This document shows, in pieces, positions 15,467 through 61,743 of a stretch of 64,000 nt of DNA. The notes under the pieces were generated by a model, which saw only the letters and a program-made list of their open reading frames with translations, was not told where the DNA came from and did not search any database. The translations under genes and the position numbers were made by a program. The stretch is from Pezicula radicicola (lineage: Eukaryota > Ascomycota > Leotiomycetes > Helotiales > Dermateaceae), in assembly GCA_003008705.1 (NCBI GenBank), contig PDUO01000008.1, positions 434,001-498,000 on the forward strand, read 5' to 3'. Numbering within the stretch: the first letter of the stretch is position 1; every line of letters starts with the position of its first letter.

Positions 15467-16080
15467 TTCGGCATGGCGATATAAGAATAGCAGACAACTT
15501 GCTCTTTAGTCTGATACCCGACACATAATACAGCGCTGTAGCGCTCGTGTCTTGCGGGTCTCGATCTCCACCACACTACTACATTCGAGAAGGTGTTATG
15601 GTGTCTGTCATTTTTGGGTTGTGCTTTTTTCGTTTCCACTGCACAGAACGTTCCTCTTTTACAAAAATCTGCGAATAATGGAATAATCTCACGCTACCGT
15701 CAATGAATTGGGATGAAAGGCGGGTAGGGAAGGAAATTTGCGATAAATTGGGTTGACTGATGGAGAGCTAGGGAGGAGGAGGGTGATTATGTGTCAGCTC
15801 GCTCTCTTGGTCGGTCTCATTTTTTCTACTGCTAAGGAAGTTTCTCAGTCTCTCTCTTTGTCATTGTTTGAGTTTTCATGGCTCTCTCTGTACAACTATC
15901 AAGGCTGGTCATGCCTGTAAACGGGCCATCATCAATCAAGAGAAGATCTTGAAGCGATCTAGTTCTGTTCTATGCTCTGAGAGGTGATACATGACAACTG
16001 TATTGAAAGTAGGTATATGTTTATTGTGATGTCGACCCTTTCTTGGAAAGCCCAGAGGAAATGAATGCTGCAATGTTAAA
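15467..16080. other. MCM1 3' flank
   Basis: This is the 3' UTR and flank of MCM1, with pyrimidine-rich and GA-rich tracts. I see no gene. Confidence 0.5.
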
Positions 16081-18280
16081 TGTTTCTAAGCTCTTGTTAT
16101 TTATATATACTTTAAAGACTTAGCTCTGTCTAGGGTTAACATAGCCTTATTAGATATATTTAGTGCCTTAGTGCAGGGTTATTATACTAAAATCTATATA
16201 TAATTAATTAGAAAGTTAAGAGCTATATCAAGCTCTAAGATATTATAACTTTATAACTTATTTCTAATTAGAACCTAGTAGTAATTTCTTAAGAGTTTAA
16301 GACTTCATTTCTTAGTTCTACTACTTTAGCTCTTAGAAGAGAGTTCTTTGCCTTTATTAGAATTTAATTTAATTTAAGCTTCTTATATTTGTTAGTAGGG
16401 TATTACAAGTTATAATGAATAATGTTTCTCTAGCCGAGACAGGAGCTTGCTCTATATTAAACTCTGTAATGTCTAGGTGTTTATTAACTAAGTATTAGTT
16501 AGAAGGGTTCAAGGCATTATTGCTAATACAGCCTTGTATAGAGGAGGGGGATAAAGGTAGTCTAAAGTTTCATGTATTATACAGATTGATTTAGGGAACT
16601 CAGTCAGCCTAATCAAAATGATCTCTTATAAACCAATTGTACAGTATCTAGTTTAGTCTCGATTGTTTCTTTGAATCGAGTATTCTTTTTTAGCAAACCA
16701 TGCAAGAGATAGTAATGCACTTCAAACCATTAATAAATTTCTTAAACTTGTTGATTACCTTGAGCTCTCCTTAAACTTCCTTCTATCACTTGTTAAGATT
16801 TTTAGATTCTGACCTTGAATGGCTTAAAGCTAGAGTTGAGTATAGGGTTGCTAAGTACAAGACATTAATAAATTAGAGCTTGGAGTAGTATCTATGCTTG
16901 ATTTAATTAATGCTACATATTTAGTTAGATAACTTTGTTCAACAGTGAGTGATCTTATATTATCGAGTATAAAAGTATTCACTCTACCTTTAAATATAAA
17001 TCTACTTAATCAAAAATTTTATCACCTTGCAACCAATTTCTATTCTCTGGATTAGATATCTCCCATTAACCCACCTAAAGCTGAAACCCAGATAGTTGTA
17101 CAAGTACAAAGAACTGTTGATATTAAGATTAGTATAGTATAGTACCACTTAGTAAGAGCATAGTAGAATGAAAAATCTCTCACTGTCAGATACCAACATT
17201 TGATACATAAAGAATTCAAGACTAATCACAAGGCATAAAACCATTTAAATTCCTCACTAAATTCCTTCCCAGGGATCACAATATCAAAACTCTTGAATCC
17301 GTTGAAAAAAAGTCACCGAAGACTAATATGCTTAACAAAGCCTTAAGTCTATAACTTTAACTATGCTTAATTGACCATAGAAGACTGTATCAAGACATAT
17401 AGACAAATCACAAAAAGAAAGCATTCTTCAAGTTGATTCTTCGAGAGGAATTTAGCAAGGATATATTAATGCTTTCTTTATCTTAGGCTTAAACCAACAA
17501 GTAACAGCGACTGTTCCTTCTTCTTCTTCCGTCTGCTGGAAGTCTTTCTTTCACATAGGCTCTGTTGATGATAAGTGACGTATATACATTAGGTATAGTT
17601 CAACAATTCAGATTCACGTCATCTAAGCAGATTTACTTGAACCTAGGACATTCATGTTACTATATTGATTCACTGTATAAATGGCATATCCTGTAAACGA
17701 GTATACTAGTATTGATTAATATTGACCTAGTCCACTTGGTGCATAAATGCCAAAAGAAAAAGACATGCTGGAAAAGTTAGTTGGATGGGTAATACACCCT
17801 AAATCTGATTTCGAACCTCTGGTAAATGTATCAAAAAAAAAAGGAAATAGCTTGTTGTTGTAGAGACTAAGTATATGTTTGTCATTTTCAAGTGTTTTGT
17901 TAGTGTTTATGGACTTTTGTAGAATTTTGTAAAGGGACAGTCTGCTATCTAAAAAAAAAGTAGTAGATGGCTTAGAGGACAACCCTCTATAAGACTGTCG
18001 GATGGAACGTGATAATCAGTGTGTTAATCAGTAGGTTGTAGGAGAATTATCATGCTATTTTCCATCAAAACTCTCGGTACCTACGAGGGAGACAGCTTGA
18101 AAGAATTCAAGTAGGCCGAGAAGGTAGCTGTTAAACACTAGTCTCTCAGGCTTTAAGCAATACTACAACTAATCTAAACCCTCCTCCTTGCCTTGCTTAA
18201 CAATACAAAGAGAAAAAGGGGAACAAGTTAGAACACTGTAAAAGTGCCTAGAAGTAGGTAGTTATACAACTTAAAGCACT
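16081..18280. repeat. AT-rich decayed (RIP-like) repeat relic
   Basis: Base composition changes abruptly near 16,080. The next 2.2 kb is strongly AT-rich, full of TA steps (such as the TATTATAACTTTATAACTTA-type stretch near 16,245) and stop codons in all frames, and poor in C and G. This is the footprint of RIP on an old transposon. Weak coding echoes remain near 16,600-17,300, but no transposase or polymerase motif is secure, and no terminal repeats are visible. Composition returns towards normal before 18.4 kb. Confidence 0.55.
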
Positions 18281-46644: not shown

Positions 46645-48282
46645 CTACAGGCTTGGTCTTAAAAACCCTCCTACAAAAAGGAGCAAAGATCCTAGGCACA
46701 CAATAACACCTGCAAAGACAGCAGCACCGACATATCCACCGCCGGAGCCAATTATCGCACCAGCAATCGGCGGACCTGCGAGAAGTCCTAAACCATTGAT
46801 AGTAACTGCAAGTCCAAGCCGGGCACCAAACTGTGACATATCCGGTGTGACACTCCCAATTGTTGCTGGTGGCATCGATATGAAGGCGCCTGAAAAGAAC
46901 CCATATATGAGACTGAAAGCTACAAGACCGCCTAGGTTTAAAATGAATGGCCAAATGAATATGAGTATGCCGCCTATCAGAACACATGTTGAATGCACCA
47001 AGGCAGGTCCAATCCTAGTTACGTTCAAGTAATTAGCAATTTTCTTCAATTGCTTCAGAAGTGGCGTAGCCCTTACTTATCTGCAATATAATTTGGAAGT
47101 ACCCTCCCAAAAATTCCTCCAACACTGAGGAAGCTAACCAAGTAAAAGCTCTGCAATCCTTTCAGATCTACACCTGCACTCATCACTCTTGTTTGTATAT
47201 AGTAGTACGGAATATAACAACCCATGAAGCTACACAGCATGCCAAGAACGAGAGCTCGGTATTTACGCTCACCAAGTGCCTTGAACTGGATGAGTGGCGC
47301 CTTCGATTTGGGTGGAAGATCTCGTCGCTGCCGAACCAATACACACGCAACGCTAAGAGTAGCTAGGACCATAAATCCTATGATTCTTAGTGCCCATCGA
47401 AAGCCCACCTCTGCCAAAAGCTTTTCAAATGCAATTGGATATACAATGCCACCAAAACTGGCTCCCGACGTCACAATACCTGTTGCCAAAGCCCTTCGCC
47501 TCACAAAATATGTAGCCGGCACTCCTACAGAAGTTAGGAATGTCAATCCCATTCCAAGGCCACCTAAAATTCCTTGGCTCAAGATAATCTGCCAATATAC
47601 TAGATGCGTCTTCCCAGTAGCCTGATCAGCCTCGATGCTATTGCCGGAGAACGAAGTTGTGATCAATGAGACAAAGATTAGGGCTGAACCAATGATAGCA
47701 AGCGATCGTGCGTAGCCAGCATCCATTGCACGTCCCCATATGACGCCGCTGAAAAGAAGTAGACATGACTGCACGGAACCAATCCAAGAGACTGCTGACT
47801 GAGTACCAATTGCTGGTGGCAGATTATAGTAAGATTGGAAAACTCCCCAAGCGTTTACTAGCCCCCTTAGGAGTTTGATTGTTAGTTTTGAATGCCAGGA
47901 GACCCAGAGAAATCTCTTACCAAGTACTAAACATCAACAGAAAACCCATGGCTACTTGTGACCATGCAACAAGCCCGCCATCTAGAACACTGGCCGGCAC
48001 TGAATCTGGAAGCACAGCCGCGCTGCCTGTCTCATCTGAAAGCTGTAATTTTTCAATTACGGAAACATTTTCCTGTACTGTCATTGCTTCTCTATCGTCG
48101 CCAGCTGCGTTGAGACTTTCAATGGCATTAGACATCGGAACTTTGTGATGGTAGTCTGCAGGCATGTACAGTGAATACTTCAAATGGGAAGTCAAAGATT
48201 GCTCTTTCCCGGAGACTTTCCCCATGGCCATCTCAGTTTTAGATTTCTTATCTATGATCTGGTGTAAAAGGATTTTAGTCAT
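46645..48282 (-). CDS. MFS transporter, monocarboxylate-porter type
   Basis: Three exons (48282-47921, 47865-47077, 47014-46645) give 506 residues. The first span carries the fungal MCT signature, LDGGLVAWSQVAMGFLLMFS, then WGLVNAWGVFQSYY across intron 1 (donor GTAAGA). About twelve spans follow, with GGLGMGLTFLTSVGVPATYF, RRRALATGIVTSGASFGGI and a last-exon GPPIAGAIIGSGGGYVGA. The hydrophilic N-terminal tail is about 75 residues, and ATG 48231 or 48225 could also be the start. The protein probably sits in the plasma or vacuolar membrane and moves a small organic acid or metabolite. It lies downstream of, and on the same strand as, the FAD monooxygenase with a 455-base gap, so export or uptake of the isocyanide-locus product is a fair guess. 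Confidence 0.85.
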
Positions 48283-48737
48283 ACTTATTCTAAGCACGCC
48301 AGAGTTCCGGTTTTTTTTGGTAATCCACGGAGGGGAAACGTGAAAGAAGGAAACATGCCGAACCTCTTCAAATTCTTCCACCTCGGCTCGGATGATCTCT
48401 CGTACGAGGAAGGTGGCACCGAGTCATTGAATCCTTCCACCCGATACCCGATCGGCCGACGGAGTACTACCCGATTTCTAAGCAATTGTTCTGCATGTTT
48501 TGATAATGTCTTAATAGGGTACGTCTTATATATTTCTAGGGATGAAAATTAGTAACGGCTAAGCAACTATAGCCAACTAGGACCCACAGATAGTTCGTCT
48601 CGGCTTCCGTAAGGCGAAACTATTGATGGCTATTTTGATCCTGGTTAACAAATCACTTTTACAAACAGGAAAGTAGTTCGAGTAAAGCAAAGAGGTTGAC
48701 TCAATCTTTTAATTGTACAAATGGCAAATAATTAGTA
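48283..48737. promoter_or_regulatory. MFS transporter promoter region
   Basis: A 455-base gap between two minus-strand genes, holding the monooxygenase 3' flank and the MFS promoter. The MFS frame stays open upstream to 48381 but without ATG. Confidence 0.45.
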
Positions 48738-50568
48738 CTAGCAGTAACCCTTGAAGTACTCCCTAGCATCATTCCCAACAAATCCAATGAATAAGTCCGG
48801 CCTCATGACCACCATCAAGCCATTAGGAAAAGCAAAGTCAGTCACCAATGTAGCCCCCGCAGGAGTGGTAACGGCCGATGCTCCACCCTCTCTTCTGACA
48901 TCCCATACCTCAATCCAAGTATTTGCCCACCGTGGAGTTTCAAATTCTGCTCCATGGTTTTTGAATACAATGAAGGTACCATACTTCACTAACTCATAGA
49001 GTCTCAAGCTAACAGCCCCATTCTTGAGGAAAGTTATGTCTGGAAACCTAGCTCCGGCAACAAACTCACCTGAAGTTCCCTCGACAACCGTGATAGAGTT
49101 GGGAGCGTACTTGATTCCCATACCAGTGATATTTGCTGCATTCTTTTCAACCAACTCGACATACTCTTGAGCGGTTTTTAGTGTACTCCGCACTAACTGG
49201 CCAGCAACATGCACAACAGTTTGAGCTGTGACACGTCTCTCTGTGTCATATGATTTAAGTAATGTGGATGGGGATGGGCCGTCAGAAGATTCCAAGCCAA
49301 TGGCAAATGCTATCCTCCAGACGAGTGCAAAGGCATCCGCGTTGCCAGTGTTGAGTCCTTGGCCGCCGTTGACAGCATGGATATGACTTGCATCTCCTGC
49401 CAAGATGATTCTGTGCAGCGGTGAAACAAAGGTTGCAGCAACTCTTTCTTGCACTAACTCAGTGTTAGCATGTTATGAGGCCTTTGCATATAGCAGAAAA
49501 CTGACCATTGTAAGTACTAAACCATTCTGTTTTGACAAACTCCACAGTGTAGGGTGCCATGTGTCTTCTCACTGATTCTTCAGATCGCTCTTGCGTTACT
49601 TCTCCATCAAGCAAGATGTAGAAACGTGCCATTCCGCGTTCTCTATCCATAAAATTAGAACACATATGTATCAAGGTGTTTACCAGAAATTTTAACTACT
49701 CACCTTGGAATCCAAGATACCCTTGATTGACCGTTCTCCTGAAAACTAATAATTTCATTGCAAACAGGAAAATCGGTCTTAATAAAGGTATCCAAAACAG
49801 CCCAACACATGTTCGGTTTATCACCTTCGAATTCAATGCCGAGCTGCTTTCGAATCGGCGACTGACCGCCATCTGCCGCTATAACATAACGCGACCTGAC
49901 AGTTTGGTCTCCTATGATAGTTTCGACGAAATCTTTCGTTTCGAGGACAGAAAGAACTTCTGTATTGTGCCGCACGTCGACATCAAGATGTTTGAGTAAT
50001 GCCTTTTCGACTTCTGATTGTCCAATCATGAGGAATTCCTTGTATGCTGAGTTCTTGATACTAGTCCACCACCGGTTGTTACGACTTTGAAATTCCCCAT
50101 TGTAGAATACAGAACTGGCTAAAAATGTGTTATTTGGATGAATTTGTTTATATTTAGGAGATGGGAAAGATGTACTGTTGCATTGCAAACCGTTCGGCCG
50201 TAGCTCTTTGAGCACACCGGCTACGTCGAGGACTTGCTGTGTACGTGCATTTAAAGCATCTGCTCGACCGACCTTCAAAGGGCCATCCCTTTTTTCTATT
50301 GTTATAAACGTAAGAAAACTGCCACTAAAATTCAAGGAATAGAATTCATGACTTACCAACGATGCAAACAGAAAGCCCCAGTTGGCGAGCAAGAACAGCT
50401 GCGCATAGTCCAGTTGGTCCAGCTGTTTTTGGTTTTAACTTTCCGTAATTCGCACAGTTAGGCGTACCTACCTCCTACTATTGTAAGATCAAATTCTGGA
50501 GTATTTACAACGGTGCACACTTCTGGTGCCTGGTAATCTCCAGCTAGTGTGGAAGAAGAATCAAGCAT
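48738..50568 (-). CDS. FAD-dependent aromatic monooxygenase (PheA/TfdB-type)
   Basis: Six exons (50568-50472, 50422-50357, 50295-50176, 50118-49704, 49642-49506, 49453-48738) give 516 residues. Class A flavoprotein motifs are all present: the dinucleotide fold VGAGPTGLCAAVLARQLG, formed by the first splice; RADALNARTQQ; the DG motif in YVIAADGGQSPIRKQLG; and the second FAD motif GDASHIHAVNGGQGLNTGNAD. The C-terminus has the family's short thioredoxin-like end with RPDLFIGFVG. The third intron (57 nt, 50175-50119) is in frame and open. Removing it yields GLQCNTSSVFYNGEF, as in relatives. An upstream ATG at 50754 would add 62 residues of leader-like sequence, so I prefer 50568. Likely role: hydroxylation of an aromatic ring or of the isocyanide product made by the divergent gene. 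Confidence 0.85.
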
Positions 50569-51944
50569 GGTGTCTATGATTGAAGGATAATGGTGGTATG
50601 TGATATTTTTTTTTTTTACAATTAAAGCAATATTCAATAAAGGATTCCTGGGAACTTGCAATGCTTCGGTAAAAGTTAAGCGGCGAGAGTGAGAGTCTTT
50701 CAGCAGGACAACTTTCAGACTTTTCGCCAATCTGCAATCTCCGAATTGTGCCATGTTACGATCACGATGATAAGACGATAAAAAATGCTTGATTGAACCT
50801 TAATACTCCTTCCCTCATGTTTCTAGACCCCTCCCACTTGCGGTCCTCGTTTTCGTACCTCCGTATCGACGACAGTCCACATTTGGCAGCTCAAGATGCA
50901 TTATCAGATGCCGCCACTACTTCGGCATATATAACGTGATGCCAAGTCTTTCCAAATTGGAAGCTATCTGGTGCATCGGGTTGTGGCGGGTTTGTGGGGT
51001 TCCGTCGCTTAAATCAGGGGTCTTTTTTGAAATATTCTTGACTGTTTTGCTCCGAGTTCATGATCTGATTATCACAATCATCCAACTGCCTTTTGTAAGA
51101 ATTGATAAGCTTGAAATTTTTTCCACCATAATGCTGAAAAATCACAGAATCCCATGTCAGAGACCTACAGGTTGCTTCAGAAAAAAGACTCGTGAATATA
51201 GTAATACGCCAGCTAGGTATCGGCTTATGAATCACACTTTCTACACACAGGAACTAAAATTATTATACGTGTCCAATGACAGTACTGTTCCCAACACGAG
51301 TAATGATGGATTTAATGTTCTAAGTTTCCTGCAGTACATAAAAGGTTAGTTACCTAAAGTAAAGGAGGAGTTGTGTTCCTACGTGACCATCACTTCTACA
51401 TATAAATCACTCTATAAGTTGTGACGCTGGCAAAACCTACAGAGACTACGTCAAATATCAATATTAACGTTGTATATGTATCATAGCCTATCAAGTACAA
51501 TCCTATCGGAAAATTCCGCATTGCATTTTGTTTAGAGACGAGTAGGTTCTAACTATTGGTAATCCCCGTCTAAGTGGGTATTTTCATAGTGGACGATTTC
51601 ATGAAAGGTGGCAGCAGAAAAAAGAAACGTATTACTTGGCATATTGGAGCCTGGTTGCGTCAGCTATACTCAGCGGTCGAGACAACCAGAAGGAGAAGGT
51701 ACCTGGGTATCTGGAACGACAAGGGCAATAGAACGGTTGAGGTGGAGCTGCAAAGAATTGTGATTAGTAACTAGTATAGTTGCCGCGGATGATTCCGTGT
51801 ATCTATTGCGACTGCTTATGAGCTAACTACAGTTAGAGTTGTATGAGTCGTTGCGGTATAAGAGGAAGTAGGTTCGAGGAGCATTGGGGTAAAGTTAAAC
51901 TCAAGACTCTTCGATCACGAAATACCAACTATCATTACATCAAG
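50569..51944. promoter_or_regulatory. Divergent promoter between FAD monooxygenase and isocyanide synthase
   Basis: A 1.38-kb bidirectional control region. A T12-type tract lies near 50,608-50,620 and a TATA-like ATATAAATC near 51,397. One exact TTTGCTC at 51046-51052 matches the core of the yeast copper-starvation element bound by Mac1. Fungal isocyanide clusters such as A. fumigatus crm respond to copper starvation, but a single seven-base match may be chance. Open frames inside are short and without family signal. Confidence 0.5.
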
Positions 51945-54407
51945 ATGTCGGCTTTAACAAGCTTTGAAGAACAACCTGCAATTACAAGTAGCCCTTGTAA
52001 TCTTTGGAATATTTTGTGCCAGGAAAATACACAAGTCTCTCCAACCGCCTTAAACGAGGGAGTTCGGGACCACGTCAATGTCACGAATAACTTAATCATT
52101 CCATCGAATTCTCAATCCACAGGTTAGTTGTACCAACTCCAATCAAGCCCAATTTTTAACTTTCTACTTTATATATCCTTCTTAGTTGACTTGCTACTTT
52201 AATTTCACTAACTTGGACCTGTGAAGCAGAGGAAGATGTATCAGACCAGGATATCAGCGAGAAAACCAGTGATACCGAGGAGACTCGATCAATTGCGGAT
52301 AGTTTTAGCTCGGTAACCACTAATAATGACGAAGTATCAGTACCAACAATCGAAGAGCTCCTAGTTGCTAGGTCTCATATCCAAAAAGCCGATTGTACGA
52401 TAGACGAAGACGAGACTGCCCTCAAAATCTTTCACATTTTGCAACGATATTCACCAGCTCCGAGAAACCCAACGAAACAACCATTACATCGAAGTCTTAT
52501 TGGAAAATCCATCCGATCGTGTGTTCATCAAAAGAAACCTCTTCACCTTATTTTGCCAGCGTTTCCTTTCAAGTCACCGAACACAATCGACAAAGTTCTT
52601 GGTAGACTGCCGGACATGGGTGAGGAAATCGCCTTGGCTACACTAGATGGCCTCTGTGCGCAAATAAATGAGGTCTATCCTGGTACAACCTTGAGTATTA
52701 TATCTGATGGTCTGGTTTATAATGGTACGTACCAGCAACAAATCATTGAGTCGACACACGCTAATCTTTCCACGTCTAGATATCCTTGGAGTCTCAGATG
52801 AAGATGTCTGGAACTATGGCTCTCCGCTCAGAAGTCTTGCTAAAAGTAGCTGCCGACACATTTCATTTGTTCGTCTCAGCAAACTGGTTTCGGATGAATG
52901 TCCTGAGCCGACTACCCTGGATGAGTATCTCGCTAAAGCTAGTTGGTACAGAGAGGAGATAGTCAACCGACATTTACCAAAGGATTTCGATGTTAATTGG
53001 GAGATAAAACATCAGATGAACTCACTCTTGACCTATCGTGGATATCTGAAATTTCTAAAGACAGATTTAAAACACGATCCTGCGCGGCAAGGTCTTGGAT
53101 CAAATAAAGTAAAGAGGATGAATGAGGCAGTTGCGAAAAGAATGATTACAAGAGGAGCAGTAAGTTCAAAGCTACGATTCCAAGATTACCAATTCTCAAT
53201 CTAAATCTTCACAGGCATTTGCATTAGCAATACAAAATTCATTCCCGACATCCATTCGAATATCTATTCACGAGTCTGAAAGCCAATGCAAACTACCAAT
53301 CGCTCTGTTCTCTGGAGGAGAGTCCTATACGACGCCTTGGCATTGCGCATCCGTCTTAGAGTTAGATGGTTCTTGGAAACATGCTCACAACGAAGTTTTC
53401 GCCGCTGATCCAAGTTATGAATTGATGCATCGAAACGAAAGGCCATCATATTACCGCAAGCGATCTGACCTGTATGACTGGAATGGGTGTACGGTGACGC
53501 CTGTATATCCATGTGGATTACTTATATCACCCCGCGAACCTCACGCAGAATTCTCAATAGACGTCATTGACATGAGAAAAGCACGAAAACTTGCGGAACT
53601 CAATTCTCCGATTATTTTCCGCGGCTTTAAGAACACCACTAATCGAGAGTTGTTTCTTCAAAAAGCACGTGAGATGGGACCTGTGATGCCATGGAAGTTT
53701 GGCGAGGTTCTTGTAGTGAAGGATGCTGGGAGTGAGAGCGCTGGATTGAATAATGTCCTGAGTGCTGAACCAATGCCGATGCACTTTGATGGCATGTTCA
53801 AAACAATAAAGGTAAAAGATGATGTCGGGAATGAACGTTTAGTTCCTCAGCCACCTAAGTAAGTAACCTCCGTTTATATGAGTTACTTGAATTAAGTCAC
53901 CTGCTCGCCTTGGGAAACTTCACTAATATCAGCAGGTTTCAATGGTTTACAGTTGCGACTCCTTCGCCGAAGGACTGCGGCCACACACTCATCGCTTCAT
54001 CCCGGCTTCTGTTCTCCCATTTACCTCAGGAGTATAAATTTGAGACACTGGAAAAGATGACCTGGACGGTCACAACAACAGCTTTCAACAATAGCACAAT
54101 CTCGAATCTCCAACTTGTCATTCCTCATCCTGAACTCGGCACTCCGTGTCTCCGATACCACGAGCCATGGCCTTCGACTAAGACCAGATTCGATCCAACA
54201 CATGTATCGATCGAAGGGTTGGAAGCAGAGGAAAGCACAAAAGTAACTGGAATGATTAATGAGTTGCTTTATGACAGACGCATTTGCTATTATCATGAGT
54301 GGGTTGAAGGGGATCTAGTGCTAAGCGATAACATTAGCATGATGCATACCCGGACTGGTTTTATTCCAGGAGCCCCGAGGGAGTTGTGGCGGATTCATAT
54401 TGATTAG
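51945..54407 (+). CDS. Isocyanide synthase (Dit1/PvcA) - TauD dioxygenase fusion
   Basis: Five exons (51945-52122, 52230-52724, 52780-53159, 53215-53858, 53936-54407) give 722 residues in frame. After a variable acidic leader, residues from about 125 to 440 are a Dit1/PvcA isocyanide synthase domain: AFPFKSPN (170-177), LGRLPDMGEEIAL, and SDGLVYND (218-225, the last Asp formed by a splice) followed by LGVSDEDVW. The rest is a TauD-type Fe(II)/2-oxoglutarate dioxygenase: PIIFRGF, the HFD facial-triad pair at His541/Asp543, the distal His703 in SMMHTRTGF, and the Arg of APRELWRIH for 2-oxoglutarate. By family knowledge the first domain turns an amino acid (often Tyr or Trp) into an isonitrile with ribulose-5-phosphate as carbon donor. 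The second oxidises or desaturates it, as PvcB does after PvcA. An ATG 102 bases upstream is a possible start. Confidence 0.9.
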
Positions 54408-55114
54408 GTGTAAATAAAATGTATAGGACTGCAAGTAGACATTCAAAGTGACCGGAATTCTTCCGTGGAATTCGACATTGTGATTAACTTGACGTCATAA
54501 CTTACTTAATAATTTGTAAACTACCTGATTTCCCAAAGTGTATCTTACTCCCAACTTCAAAGTTGTGTCGTTGTGTCGCTAAAAGGCGTGGTTCTCGCTT
54601 GTCACCCCTTTCTAGTTTTCGCCGTCTCTACTTTTACGCAATCAGGTCACAAGTAGCACACCATATCTGTTATACAAAAACTCTTTCATTCACTCCAGAT
54701 GATATTCTCCTCATTTTTAAAAACAGCAAACTCGTATTCACCATATTTTCCCAAAGTGGTACAGCGCACGTGACCTCGGCAAGACAGTACCCCGTACAAC
54801 TTCAAACGTTACCTACTCTACAAACCACCACCAACCAACACATCAAAGATAACAGGTTCTCTACAACATCATACGGCTAAGAGTCTCGGCAATCGTTTGA
54901 GCGGGCTTCTTTTTTTCCGCCGCTGTACCATTGGGATCGCACTGCCAAGCGCCGATTCAATTGATCCCGTCAAGGACTCAAGGTCTAAAGGACTCAGCCT
55001 CGAAGCGTCATTCATTTACCAAATCGCCGAATTCAGTATCAACGCAAAGCAAAATCCAAGACCCCGATTGCAATCTACAAATTCAAGCTAGTACAAAACC
55101 CACCGTCAACAAAA
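54408..55114. other. Intergenic
   Basis: The 3' flank of the isocyanide synthase, then the promoter and leader of the SRPBCC gene. Short open frames only. Confidence 0.5.
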
Positions 55115-55759
55115 ATGATCTACCCAGAAACATCACCTGACAAGACCGCCGTCACGTCGGCCCTCGTCCAACCAATCGCAGTTCCAACACACGGACCTGG
55201 AGGCTCCTTCACCGTTCTAGCAAAAGTACATATCTCCGGCTCTCCAACCGCAGCTCTAAAAGCAGTTCAAAATACCAATACCTGGCCTACATGGAACACG
55301 TTCTGTCCCTCCTGCAAATTCCCCGCTTCTAAGACTCCACCGCAGGAATCGTCTTCGACATCAGAGAATGGAGGCGAGACTGGAAACTCTGGAGAGGGCT
55401 GGTTGGAGAAAGGTATTATAGCGACGATTACGTATGTTATGAGTCCTGGTGGTTCATCTGGTGAACAAGGGATTGAGATTACGATTCTGGATCATGAGTT
55501 TGTGTCTGAGGAGGGTAAGAAGGGTCATCGTATTGCATGGAAATCAACTGGGAGAGCTCACTGGTCATTGCATTCGGAGCGTGTTATGGAGTTTATTGAT
55601 GATGGAGAGGGTGGTTGTGATTATGTGTGTTGGGAGACTTTTGGAGGTGGCTTAGGTGTTGCGGTTAAGTTGACTGTGGGTGGGAAGTTGAGGGATAGGT
55701 TTGGTGATTATGCTAGGGATTTGAAGGCGTTTGTTGAGGGTGGTTCTGTCATTGCTTGA
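55115..55759 (+). CDS. SRPBCC (START-like) fold protein
   Basis: An intron-free gene of 214 residues. The central part fits the SRPBCC/polyketide-cyclase-like fold: a first strand FTVLAKVHISGSPTAALKAV, the helix with NTNTWPTWNTFCPSCKFP, strands GIEITILDHEF and HRIAWKSTGRAHWSLHSERVMEF, then YVCWETFGGGLGVAVKLTVG and the long C-terminal helix KLRDRFGDYARDLKAFVEG. Members bind small hydrophobic ligands, and some act as cyclases, but no catalytic set can be read here. It lies 708 bases downstream of the isocyanide synthase on the same strand, so it could belong to the locus, or be an unrelated neighbour. Confidence 0.8.
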   Translation: MIYPETSPDKTAVTSALVQPIAVPTHGPGGSFTVLAKVHISGSPTAALKAVQNTNTWPTWNTFCPSCKFPASKTPPQESSSTSENGGETGNSGEGWLEKGIIATITYVMSPGGSSGEQGIEITILDHEFVSEEGKKGHRIAWKSTGRAHWSLHSERVMEFIDDGEGGCDYVCWETFGGGLGVAVKLTVGGKLRDRFGDYARDLKAFVEGGSVIA

Positions 55760-56324
55760 GATATGGCGAGTGAGCGCTTGCACTGGGAGACAGGAATGTT
55801 TAGACGGAGATTATGAAGAATGGTGACGCTCTATGGGAGGGGAGAATTTATGCTGCATGGAATTTGAGCGAATTTTGCTGGCTAGTAATCTGCCAAATGT
55901 TATATATCCAGCTTTTGTTTACAGTTGCCCAAGGTTTATTCTTGAACTGGTGACGTAGAAACTCCAATACTCTTAGGAGCCATGTATTTTTGTCACACAA
56001 AAGACAATATCTACTAGTACCTCTTTATATGTGTGATTGCTCGACTCGCCTTAATTTTAGCCTGTTATAGTACTTAAGGCTTGCCACACTGCTCAAGTTG
56101 ATGATATTTCTGCCTTTAGTTAAAGACACGGCTTGTTACTTTGTCATTGTCAATTGAATATTACTCCTTGTAGAGGAGCTAACTCGCGGTAAGAGTACTT
56201 TGCTATGTAGGGAAAAAATCTTTAGTTGAAATCACTACGGCTCATGATGTTGTATTGAAATATGCATATGTATATTTAAAATATAGATATAGTGTTCATA
56301 GAGACTATTAAGTCTTGGAGTGTG
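55760..56324. other. Intergenic, between convergent genes
   Basis: AT-rich 3' flanks of the SRPBCC gene (+) and the zinc-finger gene (-). No gene is seen. Confidence 0.5.
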
Positions 56325-57117
56325 TCAATACGCGGTATTGATCATGGTTGTACCAATCTCCAAATCAGCCACAAATATATCTGATTTTAGGGCGTCGCCC
56401 ATAATATCAGTATCTGGACTGCTGTGCATACCCGTAGGCATGACGTCCCACGGTGTTAGCAGCGAATCCAGCCAAGTATTCCCACTACCAAACACATCTG
56501 AGCCTAACTGGTATCCCGAGGTAAATGACACGTCCTGCACATAGGAGTTCTCGAGGAAGAACGAGTCGTCAAATGCAGGCGGATAGTTGTTCAAGTGAGG
56601 CGTGGATGTAGTTCCTGGAAGGTCAAATGGTATCTCAACCACATCCGGACTTGATTGATCGAGCCAGTTGTACATAGTGTCTAGCATGGAGAATGTCTCG
56701 GGAAAGAATGAGAGCTCGACTTCAGGTGGAGAAGGCATCGATTCGGACGTAGTCGGAGTAGCTGCTATTTATAAAATTAGAATCAGAGCTCCAAAACCTT
56801 TAGAAGTGGCAGCGCCTACTAGTTCCCCCGTGAATTTTTCGCACATGCTCTTTCATCTTGTCCACTCTACCTGTTGCATATCCACAACCCTGATAGCTAC
56901 ATAGCCGCTTCGGCTCATGGAGAGAGCGCTTGTGACGTGCGAGATCAGAAGGGCGACGAAAGCTCGACGAGCAGCCGGGGATATGACAATGGTACCGTAC
57001 TGGAGATTGGTGCCGCGTGGTACTCTTGAAGGGATGTTCGTACTTGCAGGCGCACTTCGAGCAAGTCCTTTTGAATGATGAGGAATCAGGCGTAGAGGCT
57101 TGGACTTGTTGATCCAT
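56325..57117 (-). CDS. C2H2 zinc-finger transcription factor
   Basis: Two exons (57117-56820, 56764-56325) give 245 residues. The intron has donor GTAGGC and acceptor AAATAG. Two C2H2 fingers sit in tandem, YHCHIPGCSSSFRRPSDLARH and LCSYQGCGYATGRVDKMKEH, preceded by a Cys-rich CSKCACKYEH piece that may be a degenerate third finger. The C-terminal half is acidic with aromatic residues and no basic clusters (for example FDDSFFLENSYVQDVSF, WLDSLLTPWDV), like a transactivation region. An in-frame ATG at 57198 would add 27 residues. The position at the edge of the isocyanide locus, the small size and the DNA-binding plus acidic layout make it the best candidate for a pathway-specific regulator, but nothing in sequence proves that. 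Confidence 0.8.
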
Positions 57118-57722: not shown

Positions 57723-57781
57723 ACGAGCCTGCCGACATTAGTCTGTGTCCCACAGGCTTCTTCCCCCACCAAAAACACCAC
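57723..57781. repeat. Left terminal inverted repeat of the Tc1/mariner element
   Basis: It begins ACGAGCCTGCCGACATTAG and ends CAAAAACACCAC. It matches the reverse complement of 58910-58968 except for one C/T difference. Confidence 0.9.
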
Positions 57782-58909
57782 CAAAATACCCACCACTCCA
57801 CCCCTCAAAGATCATGAACCAGGCTTCGAAATCCCTACCAAAGATAAAGAAGCTATACACCAATTATATGGCTTTGTAAAGACACCAATTCCAGAGTTAA
57901 TGAGGTATTACCGGCTTGGGTATATAATAATCAATCGCATCCTTTATTACGATGTACCCGAGTGTATACGCCCAAATCGAACTAGTCCAAAACTCCTCTT
58001 AAATGATATTAAAGTCGCCTAAATTATCGAATATTGTATAGGAAGTTAGGAGTATCGAATCCTTGATTATATAGTACTTCATGATCAACTTAAGCTTGAG
58101 TATAGCCCAAAAATACTCGAACGTAGGCTTAAACAATGTAGCTATTTCCGATGTATCGTATACCAGAAGCCCTACCTTATATAAGCTCAAGTAATAAAAC
58201 AATTACTCTGGGGGCTTAAATATATATTCTGGAGGAGAGAGAAAGAGTAGAGGGTAATTCTTTGGTCAGATGAAGTATCATTTCTGGTTAGTGGTTGTAC
58301 AGTAAAGCAGAGGGTTACAAGGGATAAAACAGAGTGATTTTACGACAATTATATATAACACCAATTTCATCGAGGTTATATAATACCTATGAATACTTGG
58401 GGGGCTATTTGATATAGCTATAAGAGTCCATTGATCTTCCTTAATGGATCTGGTAAGAAGGGAGCCTTTATATAAGTCGATTACGAATCATAAGTACTAT
58501 TACTATATATAGTCTCTATTCTCGATGATTTTATAATATATATATATACCCTTCATATAGAGCCTTTGTTTATAGAGGATGGGAACTCTATACATGGCCA
58601 TAAGTTAAAGAGTAATTACTACACCTTATTCCGAACAAAAAATAGGATTATATTACTACCTTATCCTTCTATAAGCCCGGATATGAATCCTATCGAAAAA
58701 TACTAGTGGTATATTAAGTAGGTACTTCATAGGCGAAGGAAATAACCAACAACTAAAGAGGAAATGAGGGTTACTGTAATAGAGGAATGGAATCGAATTC
58801 CACAAGAATAGATAAATAAGTTAATTAATAAGCAAGAATATTGGGTTCATATATTAGTAGAGCGTTCTGGCTGGTCTACTCCTAATTAAATTGAAGTAAT
58901 TGCATTATC

Positions 58910-58968
58910 GTGGTGTTTTTAGTGGGGGAAGAAGCCTGTGGGACACAGACTAATGTCGGCAGGCTCGT
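58910..58968. repeat. Right terminal inverted repeat of the Tc1/mariner element
   Basis: It begins GTGGTGTTTTTAGTGGGGG and ends CTAATGTCGGCAGGCTCGT, the reverse complement of the left repeat over 59 bases with one mismatch. Confidence 0.9.
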
Positions 58969-59153: not shown

Positions 59154-61743
59154 ATGAACACCTACTCCACTGGGGTTGGTATGTGTCCCCTATCACTGAT
59201 TGAATCTCAATTGCTAATTCAGCAGATATGAATAATGGAAACAACCTGTCTATATATACAGAACTCTCAATCTTCAAAAGGGAATCGAACGTAGTCCGGA
59301 GAGAAATCCTGTTCAAAGACCTTAATCAAAAAAGGAACCTTCACTGTCTCGCTCATGATCTTGGTTTGGAGTACGAATATTCCCTGACAACCAGTACCTC
59401 AAGAGTCACTCGGTCTGGCGGTTTGTCAGCACTCGATATCGGCCATGATGGCTCCCAAGTAGGAGCTAGCGTCACACCGGATATTGTTGATGGCTTCCAA
59501 GTCACTGAATTTGGCAACCTTCCGTTTTCTGCTGTCACATCAGAAAACGTGGAGGAACAACAGGCTGCCACTACCGCGACATCTGAAATAGACATGGACT
59601 GGCTCAATTTTCCCCAGAATTCAACCCTGCCTCCCTCATCCTTTTCATCCTCCGCAGATGAGCTTCTATACAACTCTTATATGGGCTAGAACCTATACCA
59701 TTTGATCATGAAAATATGCGTCACAAGCCCAACCCCCCCCTGAATCATCAAAATACGACAACAAACAGCCCAACTCGTAGCATATCGCGGGGACGTGCAA
59801 TTCCAGATACACCAGGTTCCCCACATCCAACCTCAACTTCGTCACGCCCCGCATCGCCTGGTCGTGTTGGACCCATGAGTCCTTATGCCCGTGCTGCAAT
59901 GAAGGCAGTCAAAGATCTTGGAGCATGCTGGAGATGCAAAATTTTGAGAAAACAAGTAAGTATGACGTTTAATGTTGTCGGGTAGCTTTCTTGCAATATA
60001 CTCTTACATCATTTGCCCCTATTTTTTTCTACACAAAGTCAAGTGACAGGCTGTGAGCAAACTACGCCTTTTTATCCTTTTGCTAAGTGGGCGGTAGTTG
60101 ATTTTAGGGAGAGATCTCGGCCATCCTCTCTTGGAAAATACATACTAAAGAAATAATTGATAGTGTGATACAGAAGTTCCATGCACTACGTGCCCCAAGA
60201 CTGGGACTACGACGGTTGAATCTGGTAATTGGAGTGGTATTGGATGCAGGCGTGGCGAACTTCCAAACGAGATGGCTAAGGTCTTGCTATGTCCAAACTC
60301 CGTCCCCTCATATAAATCCATACCGCTCTTTGATGGCAACATTGAGGCTTTGACAGCTGCTAATGAATGCTGGCAAGAAAATTTGAAGAGTCGGCAGGAG
60401 GCAATGGAAAGCAATAATGCGCTAGTTACTAGTCAGAAAACCGACGTTCGATTGTTTCCTCCGAGAATTAGGACTTATGAAGCCTATCGTAGAAGGCCTT
60501 AGGCTAGCTCGCATCACCTAGTCCGAGCAGGAACTTCCAGCTCTTCCCAAGGTTGACCGATGCATCCTGAGTATAATATGAGAACTGTCTGATTGTTCTG
60601 CCTCTGAAGCCGTGGTAGGACAGAAGAATGTCTCGGATCTCGTAGTTGTCTTTCGTGCAGCAGCTCTCTATCAAGCCAAGCATGGAAAAGTACGACATAT
60701 GAACTCATGTCCCCTCACATCGTTGCTGGCTTTTCTTTGAAGGACCAATTAATCGTAAACTCTCTCGATTTCCTACGGGGCAGCTTCGAGGCCATCAAAA
60801 TGAAGGCAGTTGGGAAGTTGAACTCTTCTGCTCACACTGCGGCAAAACTCAGTGTCGAGTCAGCTGTATTTGTACGAAAAGCATTGATAGCGTTGGTGGA
60901 CAACGACGCAACCGCTCAACCACTATGGGCCAGAGAATATCTTCATCTTCCACTTCGACTGTTCATTGCAATTTCTGATAAACATGACCCATTGTCGAAG
61001 TCATCGGATATCGATATCTCATGGGTGGACGAAGACACCACCAGGGCAGACTATGAAACCGCTCGGCTTCTTATCCACCCCGAGAACAACGAGAACCAAG
61101 ATTCAGCAGACTATCTCAAGAAACTCTTTAAAGACAAAGGTAGCTCACTGTACTAGAACGCTGACTTTGAGTTCTTTTCTTCCTCAAGCCCGGCTATGGC
61201 TGTTGACCGTATGAGCGTGGATGGTATCTCCAACCCGCAAATTGGCGGCTTTCCGTGCACCTACCCAGGCTGTACTGCACCACCATTTTAAACCCAGGTA
61301 GGTTGAAATATCACTCTAATGCCTCTGTTAAACATCTCTAGCAAAAACTAATATGAGAGAAGTACCTCTTGAACAGCCATACCGAGATTCACTCGAGCAA
61401 TCGACCACATTACTGTCCAGTCAAAGGTTGTCCTCGATCCGAAGGCGGCAAAGGTTTTAAGCGAAAGAACGAGATGATTCGGCATGGGCTCGTCCATGAT
61501 GCCCTTGGCTATGTTTGTCCTTTCTGCCCAGACCGAGAGCACAAGTATCCACGGCCGGACAATCTTCAACGGTTCGTATTATCTATCGCTGAGCCCTGGC
61601 ATTATCTAACAATGGCTTCCAGGCACGCAAGGGCTCATCACGTAAACAAAGATAAGGACGACCCTCAACTTCGAGAAGTGCTTTCACAAAGGCTAGAAGG
61701 TCCTAGTTGGGATCGACACCGGAGACTAGTGGGGACTAGTTGA
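59154..61743 (+). pseudogene. Fungal zinc-finger transcription factor, broken
   Basis: Exons of one long regulator can be followed to 61743. They include an N-terminal exon from ATG 59154 (MNTYSTGV, then 59226), and a Cys-rich module GACWRCKILRKQ + CDTEVPCTTC ... GIGCRRGE split by an intron at 59956-60163. A helical middle (LPALPKVDRCILSII; ASEAVVGQKNVSDLVVVF; DQLIVNSLDFLRGSFEAIK) and C-terminal C2H2-like fingers (CTYPGC, HYCPVKGC, YVCPFCPDREH) follow. The frame is lost near 59685 (one base missing in GGG) and again near 60494-60500. In-frame stops are TAG 60519-60521, TGA 60579-60581 where Trp is expected, and TAA 61289-61291 where Gln is expected, the last two being C:G to T:A changes. Splice sites are still intact, so loss is recent. 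It lies 186 bases from the transposon. Confidence 0.75.

Follow-up and report, generated by a model that had tools for sequence, protein, structure and literature searches.

Few fungal isocyanide pathways have been solved. According to PMC10153163, isocyanides are copper-binding compounds with roles in competition and metal homeostasis, and in the same report Nickles et al. counted 4,341 isocyanide synthase (ICS) genes in 3,300 fungal genomes, with fusions of the synthase to a TauD-type dioxygenase (ICS-TauD) making up 36.2% when one genome per species is taken. The fungal ICS clusters described there include major facilitator superfamily (MFS) transporters in ~60%, cytochrome P450s (P450) in 34.6%, zinc-finger regulators in 21.3% and isocyanide hydratases in 21.1% of cases, and ICS-dioxygenase fusions had been described in bacteria and fungi in the text of Lim et al. 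(PMC5974471). Here we analyse a locus in the helotialean fungus Pezicula radicicola in which such a fusion stands divergent to a flavin adenine dinucleotide (FAD)-dependent monooxygenase. The locus lies in a 64,000-nucleotide stretch of contig PDUO01000008.1 (G000:C120:434001-498000 in our genome set), hereafter the window, of a 61-Mb genome in 152 contigs, and all gene models were built by hand. We propose, with a probability of roughly two in three, that it encodes a small isocyanide pathway of at least two enzymes, in which the synthase, the fused iron/2-oxoglutarate (Fe/2OG) domain and the FAD monooxygenase would act in the steps set out below and the MFS protein probably exports the product.

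A bacterial precedent by gene content is pvcABCD of Pseudomonas aeruginosa (paerucumarin), which resembles the Pezicula locus in having a synthase, an Fe/2OG enzyme and then a flavin monooxygenase. PvcC, however, belongs to another flavoprotein family than the Pezicula enzyme. The two systems also differ in that the Pseudomonas proteins are separate and that PvcB makes an isocyanoacrylate, as stated in part of PMC9467999, whereas the Pezicula dioxygenase carries markers of the PIsnB type. Among fungi, the xan cluster of Aspergillus fumigatus is alike in being small and in carrying ICS and TauD domains in one polypeptide, XanB; yet the passages of PMC5974471 and PMC10153163 on the A. fumigatus clusters name P450s, isocyanide-hydratase-like proteins and C6 regulators, and no FAD monooxygenase. 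Because these two reports, in the parts cited here, already describe such clusters, the fusion, the presence of an MFS gene and the size of the cluster are ordinary, and the fusion is not new. Within the open-licence literature, the new element is the monooxygenase and its bacterial linkage: the words "FAD" and "monooxygenase" are absent from the main text of PMC10153163, whose supplementary cluster tables may hold the combination, and a PvcA-PvcB-FAD set is not described in the titles or abstract beginnings of the open-licence papers that literature searches listed.

A synthase-dioxygenase fusion divergent to a flavin monooxygenase

Genes of the source genome have short GT-AG introns in the style of filamentous fungi. 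Five exons on the forward strand (51945-52122, 52230-52724, 52780-53159, 53215-53858 and 53936-54407), joined across GT..AG introns, form the fusion gene at 51945-54407, which encodes 722 amino acids, exactly the length predicted in a sequence-only reading that had proposed a Pvc-like isocyanide cluster here. Both of its domains score over the Pfam cut-offs, DIT1_PvcA (PF05141) with 283.2 bits at residues 154-420 and TauD (PF02668) with 95.1 bits at residues 472-719, which is the fusion that defines fungal ICS-TauD proteins. Across the genome, PF05141 matches only three exon-wise pieces, all of this single gene. On the reverse strand, five exons (50568-50472, 50422-50357, 50295-49704, 49642-49506 and 49453-48738) encode an FAD-dependent monooxygenase of 535 amino acids at 48738-50568 (PF01494, 197.3 bits). 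The divergent region between the two genes, taken from the gene-model coordinates, spans 1,376 bp (50569-51944), and an MFS gene lies behind the monooxygenase, as the sequence-only reading had it; all five genes that it had named were located at the positions it gave. The five-gene arrangement is therefore real. Full-length domains with intact iron and flavin motifs are not explained by chance, and the locus is probably a functional isocyanide cluster of a known general kind.

The fusion was aligned to the solved structures of PvcA, PIsnB and PvcB. In its TauD domain, H541, D543 and H703 align with the PIsnB iron ligands His101, Asp103 and His250, and R718 aligns with the residue by which PIsnB grips the substrate carboxylate, such that all four residues of a PIsnB-type site are in place. 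Kim et al. proposed, in the part of PMC9467999 drawn on here, that enzymes forming vinyl isonitriles carry K/R and N/H at two positions where those forming isocyanoacrylates carry L and C. In the Pezicula protein these positions, 107 and 188 of PIsnB, are occupied by K547 and H641, and both fit the vinyl type, which predicts a decarboxylating dioxygenase.

Related monooxygenases are linked to isocyanide genes in bacteria

Of 70 NCBIfam families matched by the fungal monooxygenase, NF005531 (PRK07190) is the best at 377.6 bits, the next scoring 215.9; the family is named only "FAD-binding protein". When plasmids were searched with the fungal monooxygenase, 707 of 72,556 records held a relative. 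The top one, from Burkholderia stagnalis (L014), has 39.8% identity and scores 311 bits, while the other 19 of the best 20 of these 707 reach at most 157 bits. A query with the synthase-dioxygenase matched 13 plasmid records, and these included the same B. stagnalis record, immediately upstream of the monooxygenase. The record has no annotation in this region. Its open reading frames (ORFs) there are a PvcA that reaches 315 bits with the L-tyrosine isonitrile synthase model (whose cut-off is 600), a PvcB recognised through tblastn, and the monooxygenase, with 877.7 bits to NF005531.

Contigs of bacterial and archaeal genomes were then scanned with a two-row alignment of the fungal and B. stagnalis monooxygenases, which yielded 44 loci among 189 pattern-matching stretches, at 35-44% identity to the fungal enzyme (median 42%); a scan of bacterial genomes with the fungal protein singly returned 18 stretches and no relative. 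As the patterns came from two linked enzymes, the 44 loci sample this subfamily and not FAD enzymes at large. By tblastn, 41 of the 44 have a PvcB-type dioxygenase as the immediate upstream neighbour of the monooxygenase, and in the remaining three (L051, L054, L057) the monooxygenase starts at the contig end. A synthase was found at 36 loci, upstream in 33 (partial in L058) and downstream in three; by tblastn none was found in L051, L054, L057 and L038, all of which are cut, in L041, or in the Pectobacterium loci L025, L027 and L036. In the three downstream cases (L017, L018 and L020, from Marinomonas and Vibrio penaeicida) the order is PvcB, monooxygenase, synthase (L017, 9171-13421), and in L017, the one of the three that was checked, the synthase carries a second dioxygenase domain as a fusion, with a weak match.

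We refer to bacterial PvcA-PvcB-NF005531 monooxygenase loci as trio loci. They occur in Burkholderia, Bdellovibrionales, Legionella, Flavobacteriaceae, Pseudonocardiaceae and others, and the rows used below come from Pseudomonadota, Bdellovibrionota, Myxococcota, Bacteroidota, Actinomycetota and Cyanobacteriota/Melainabacteria. They share with the Pezicula locus a related FAD monooxygenase and, in 37 of 41 dioxygenase rows, the K/R marker, but PvcA and PvcB are mostly separate genes on one strand, whereas the fungal genes are fused and divergent.

A second count was made that was not seeded by the patterns, although at least 4 of its 16 carrier genomes (G003, G004, G009, G018) also contributed to the 44 loci. 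In 191 genomes of one phylum (that of G004, Bdellovibrionales), 16 hold NF005531 over its cut-off, with at most 7 candidates scored per genome, and 22 hold PF05141. PvcA stands just upstream on the same strand in 14 of the 16 carriers, in G483 it and the monooxygenase are on separate contigs, and 7 of the 22 PvcA genomes are without the monooxygenase. All 11 genomes of the genus of Legionella quinlivanii (G008) hold PF05141 and three hold the monooxygenase, adjacent in 3/3 with PvcA just upstream; the bacterial members in these two counts score 779-920 bits to NF005531. Among 398 genomes in the phylum of Burkholderia ubonensis (G006), PF05141 was found in four and the monooxygenase in one, the centre genome itself (E up to 1e-90, three candidates scored per listed genome). 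The monooxygenase is thus optional, but where it occurs it faithfully accompanies PvcB and, in most cases, PvcA. Ten synthase loci without this monooxygenase (L066-L074, derived from PF05141, and L016) were compared, and in L070 alone a weaker FAD-enzyme match was seen, with 25% identity and ~2 kb from PvcA.

Several bacterial loci hold further genes. An ATP-grasp protein, which may link the product to a further acid or amine, stands behind the monooxygenase in L047 (11422-12651) and L041 (12673-13908), and its ORF group occurs in 7 of 45 clustered bacterial loci. The ORF directly after the B. stagnalis monooxygenase (L014, 13205-13684) has a match in TecA, a family of type VI effectors. A second B. 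stagnalis replicon (L015, 3150-13740) carries on one strand a fused ICS-dioxygenase, another synthase, an efflux MFS protein, a methyltransferase and a UbiA prenyltransferase. On a Hymenobacter plasmid (L016, 5356-10365) a synthase, a TauD dioxygenase and an annotated FAD-dependent oxidoreductase stand in a row; tblastn with the fungal monooxygenase gave no match at this locus, which seems to use another flavoprotein family.

Relationships of the fungal enzymes

The fungal monooxygenase groups with 44 bacterial rows at a support of 100/98 in a 53-row tree, on long branches that were flagged. On the bacterial side this tree includes L014 together with 43 of the 44 loci, of which three are cut upstream (L059, L011 and L012 were dropped as too short), and the controls are four paralogs from the Pezicula genome and four plasmid-record enzymes without an ICS match. 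A tree of 24 rows recovers the same grouping at 98/94, and joining the fungal enzyme to two of its own paralogs is marginally rejected (approximately unbiased test, p-AU 0.0475). The fungal enzyme is placed as sister to the bacterial NF005531 members and not nested inside them. It shares 126 of 185 columns conserved in the bacterial group (68%), compared with 37-44% in the eight controls, and keeps 127 of the 196 columns that are at least 90% conserved in the trio loci (42 rows); the corresponding figures are 55 of 98 for the fungal synthase (32 rows) and 43 of 89 for the dioxygenase (40 rows). Given the linkage to PvcB and PvcA in bacteria and this placement in the trees, the fungal monooxygenase is very probably a true pathway enzyme, and the core of the proposed Pvc-like cluster, synthase-dioxygenase with FAD monooxygenase, holds on the strength of the bacterial linkage.

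We considered whether the whole synthase-dioxygenase-monooxygenase set entered the fungus from bacteria as one unit, a history that the present comparisons do not support and that we regard as unlikely. It would agree with a monooxygenase whose nearest kin are the linked bacterial enzymes rather than the sampled paralogs of its own genome, and with the Marinomonas and V. penaeicida loci, where the synthase lies on the monooxygenase's other side and, in L017, is fused. In a synthase tree of 38 rows the fungal synthase joins fused bacterial synthases on long branches (among them, L017 and L018 adjoin a monooxygenase, though labelled non-trio), and in a tree of 31 rows, from which some trio rows and L015, L074 and L076 were omitted, it joins L017 and L018 at 97/93. 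The branches to these two are, however, long and flagged, and once both are removed the fungal synthase stands alone, outside the trio group. Forcing it into the trio in the 31-row set costs 22 log units (p-AU 0.07), which leaves the grouping disfavoured, not rejected. Because the fungal synthase does not settle with the trio PvcA, we do not claim a transfer as one unit. If the pairing of the enzymes arose separately in fungi, the functional link between them would be strengthened.

Proposed pathway

In the pathway that we propose for the Pezicula locus, the synthase domain would turn an aromatic amino acid (tyrosine being the likeliest) into the corresponding isocyanide, from which the fused Fe/2OG domain would remove the carboxylate and install a double bond, giving an aromatic vinyl (styryl) isocyanide. 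In the tyrosine case the intermediate would be 4-hydroxystyryl isocyanide. The divergent FAD monooxygenase would then hydroxylate the phenol ring, presumably beside its hydroxyl group and thus most likely to a catechol, and the MFS protein is the probable exporter of the product. The sequence from tyrosine isocyanide through 4-hydroxystyryl isocyanide to a ring-hydroxylated product, including this order of steps, is predicted from the residue markers of the dioxygenase and the phenol-acting relatives of the monooxygenase together.

Among solved structures, the closest matches to the FAD enzyme are VibO, 3-hydroxybenzoate hydroxylase and phenol hydroxylase, three kinds that act on phenols and share its FAD_binding_3 fold; other solved relatives in that match list act on different aromatic or polyketide substrates. 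By sequence alignment, the fungal D67, R252 and Y260 coincide with positions of Trichosporon phenol hydroxylase that we take to be the catalytic residues Asp54, Arg281 and Tyr289. The R and Y are identical in 44/44 bacterial rows and the D in all 42 rows that cover its position. The solved flavin hydroxylases differ in length, at 639-665 amino acids against 535 in the fungal enzyme, and the best match stretches end at fungal residues 384-419.

A tryptophan-derived isocyanide, in which the dioxygenase would give an indole vinyl isocyanide and the FAD enzyme would oxidise the indole ring, appears improbable. The synthase family includes enzymes named for either tyrosine or tryptophan, and the abstract of PMC7949033 gives both L-Trp and L-Tyr; against this stand the phenol-acting enzymes among the best solved relatives of the monooxygenase and the three phenol-hydroxylase positions that it keeps.

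Several observations weigh against the tyrosine-to-catechol pathway or parts of it. The one NCBIfam model hit by the fungal synthase with an E-value of 1e-5 or below, that of the L-tyrosine isonitrile synthase, accords with tyrosine, but the match (116.7 bits, cut-off 600) is too weak to decide the substrate; the 377.6 bits of the monooxygenase likewise fall under the curated NF005531 cut-off of 530. Median identity to the trio proteins is ~29% for the synthase domain and 28% for the TauD domain, and the trees give no clear grouping of the fungal synthase with the trio PvcA. The D/R/Y triad is not special to the linked enzymes, since L008, a paralog from the same genome, has all three residues. 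The rule that separates vinyl from isocyanoacrylate formers is not absolute: two single changes left the product unaltered, as stated in part of PMC9467999, and the 41 bacterial dioxygenase rows have R in 37, L in 3 and M in 1 at its first position and N in 26, C in 11 and G in 4 at its second. In the Bdellovibrionales, G567 holds PvcB beside the monooxygenase and no PvcA match at all. The three Pectobacterium loci have a dioxygenase and a monooxygenase with no adjacent synthase found; both of the Pectobacterium genomes that were inspected (those of L025 and L036) have a PvcA at another site, and the pair in L025 (9111-11443) is adjoined by an AMP-binding enzyme and a carrier protein, an arrangement suggestive of a related pathway that starts differently.

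The linkage in bacteria and in a fungus points to a shared extra step in the isocyanide pathways of both kingdoms, ties the fungal cluster to bacterial loci of several phyla and offers a testable function for a family that its name leaves undescribed. It also yields a rule for genome mining, namely to seek this monooxygenase beside PvcB-type dioxygenases. We speculate, as a tentative extension that we hold well below the pathway itself, that the NF005531-type enzymes and their fungal relative could serve bacteria and fungi alike as a dedicated third enzyme in the biosynthesis of aromatic isocyanides, making a catechol styryl isocyanide with two metal-binding groups, perhaps a ligand of copper or iron or an inhibitor of copper enzymes.

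Neighbouring genes and cluster edges

The MFS gene (46645-48282, reverse strand, three exons; PF07690, 97.2 bits) encodes 489 or 506 amino acids, depending on whether the start at 48231 or that at 48282 is chosen. Its best NCBIfam models are monocarboxylate-transporter-like and far under their cut-offs (SfMCT, 81.6 bits, cut-off 320), and among the 44 bacterial loci the protein was matched at only one, weakly (L023, 41 bits). It would suit an exporter of the pathway because it shares the strand of the monooxygenase across a gap of ~0.5 kb, and its membership of the cluster is plausible.

Behind the synthase stand an SRPBCC-like gene (55115-55759, forward strand, one exon, 214 amino acids), with a sub-threshold match to Polyketide_cyc2 (22.3 against 27.4 bits), and a gene for a putative C2H2-type regulator (56325-57117, reverse strand, two exons and one intron, 244-245 amino acids in the two longest models), whose first piece matches zf-C2H2 below threshold (19.3 against 25.2 bits). 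The sequence-only reading had placed both in its candidate cluster; the basis for this is adjacency, and their membership is unproven. The four upstream regions have no word of 7 to 10 bases common to all, in a search of exact words with low power, and words present in three of the four are about as frequent as in shuffled sequences (8-mers, 3 against 2.1 expected). The divergent region contains one Mac1-like word and no XanC word, and we count this as no evidence. That the monooxygenase and MFS genes are an unrelated catabolic or detoxifying pair beside the synthase by chance would accord with the weakness of adjacency as evidence in fungi, with the many relatives of the FAD enzyme in the genome (at least 64 exon-wise matches) and with the lack of a shared promoter word, but is the least probable of the alternatives given that PvcB immediately precedes the related bacterial enzyme in 41 of 44 loci and that the fungal protein groups with these linked enzymes against the sampled paralogs.

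Neither an isocyanide hydratase nor a P450, one of which is found in xan-like clusters according to Fig. 1 of PMC5974471, was matched in the window, in agreement with the sequence-only reading: for P450s 92 of 574 candidates were scored and the sole match listed on the contig lies ~248 kb past the window end, and for the DJ-1/PfpI family of the hydratases all 14 candidates were scored and the sole contig match lies ~324 kb past it. A repeated DNA element (57723-58968) with 65-base inverted ends, 95% complementary, lies ~0.6 kb upstream of the C2H2 gene. At least 23 near-full-length copies are present in the genome, the window copy included, and we read it as Tc1/mariner-like; an ORF inside it has no Pfam match. 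Its position ~0.6 kb past the C2H2 gene makes it a plausible right edge of the cluster.

In the 20 kb of right flank, a protein kinase, an amino-acid permease and a piece of a cytosine-5 DNA methylase were found (L004, three of ten listed ORFs scanned), and further ORFs resemble, by eye, PurF and an endonuclease III-like protein (L005). We considered these as further cluster members and rejected them, as none is typical of isocyanide clusters. Of six window ORFs outside the five genes that were scanned against Pfam, five had no match and one had an ENTH domain. Past the DNA element, two ORFs (59662-59985 and 61357-61743) show zinc-finger-like cysteine patterns by eye, and their single-frame pieces, within 59662-61743, have no Pfam match. 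Elsewhere in the window are a 5S ribosomal RNA gene (705-824) and an AT-rich segment (16001-18000), with a G+C content of 0.318 compared with 0.40-0.51 in the rest.

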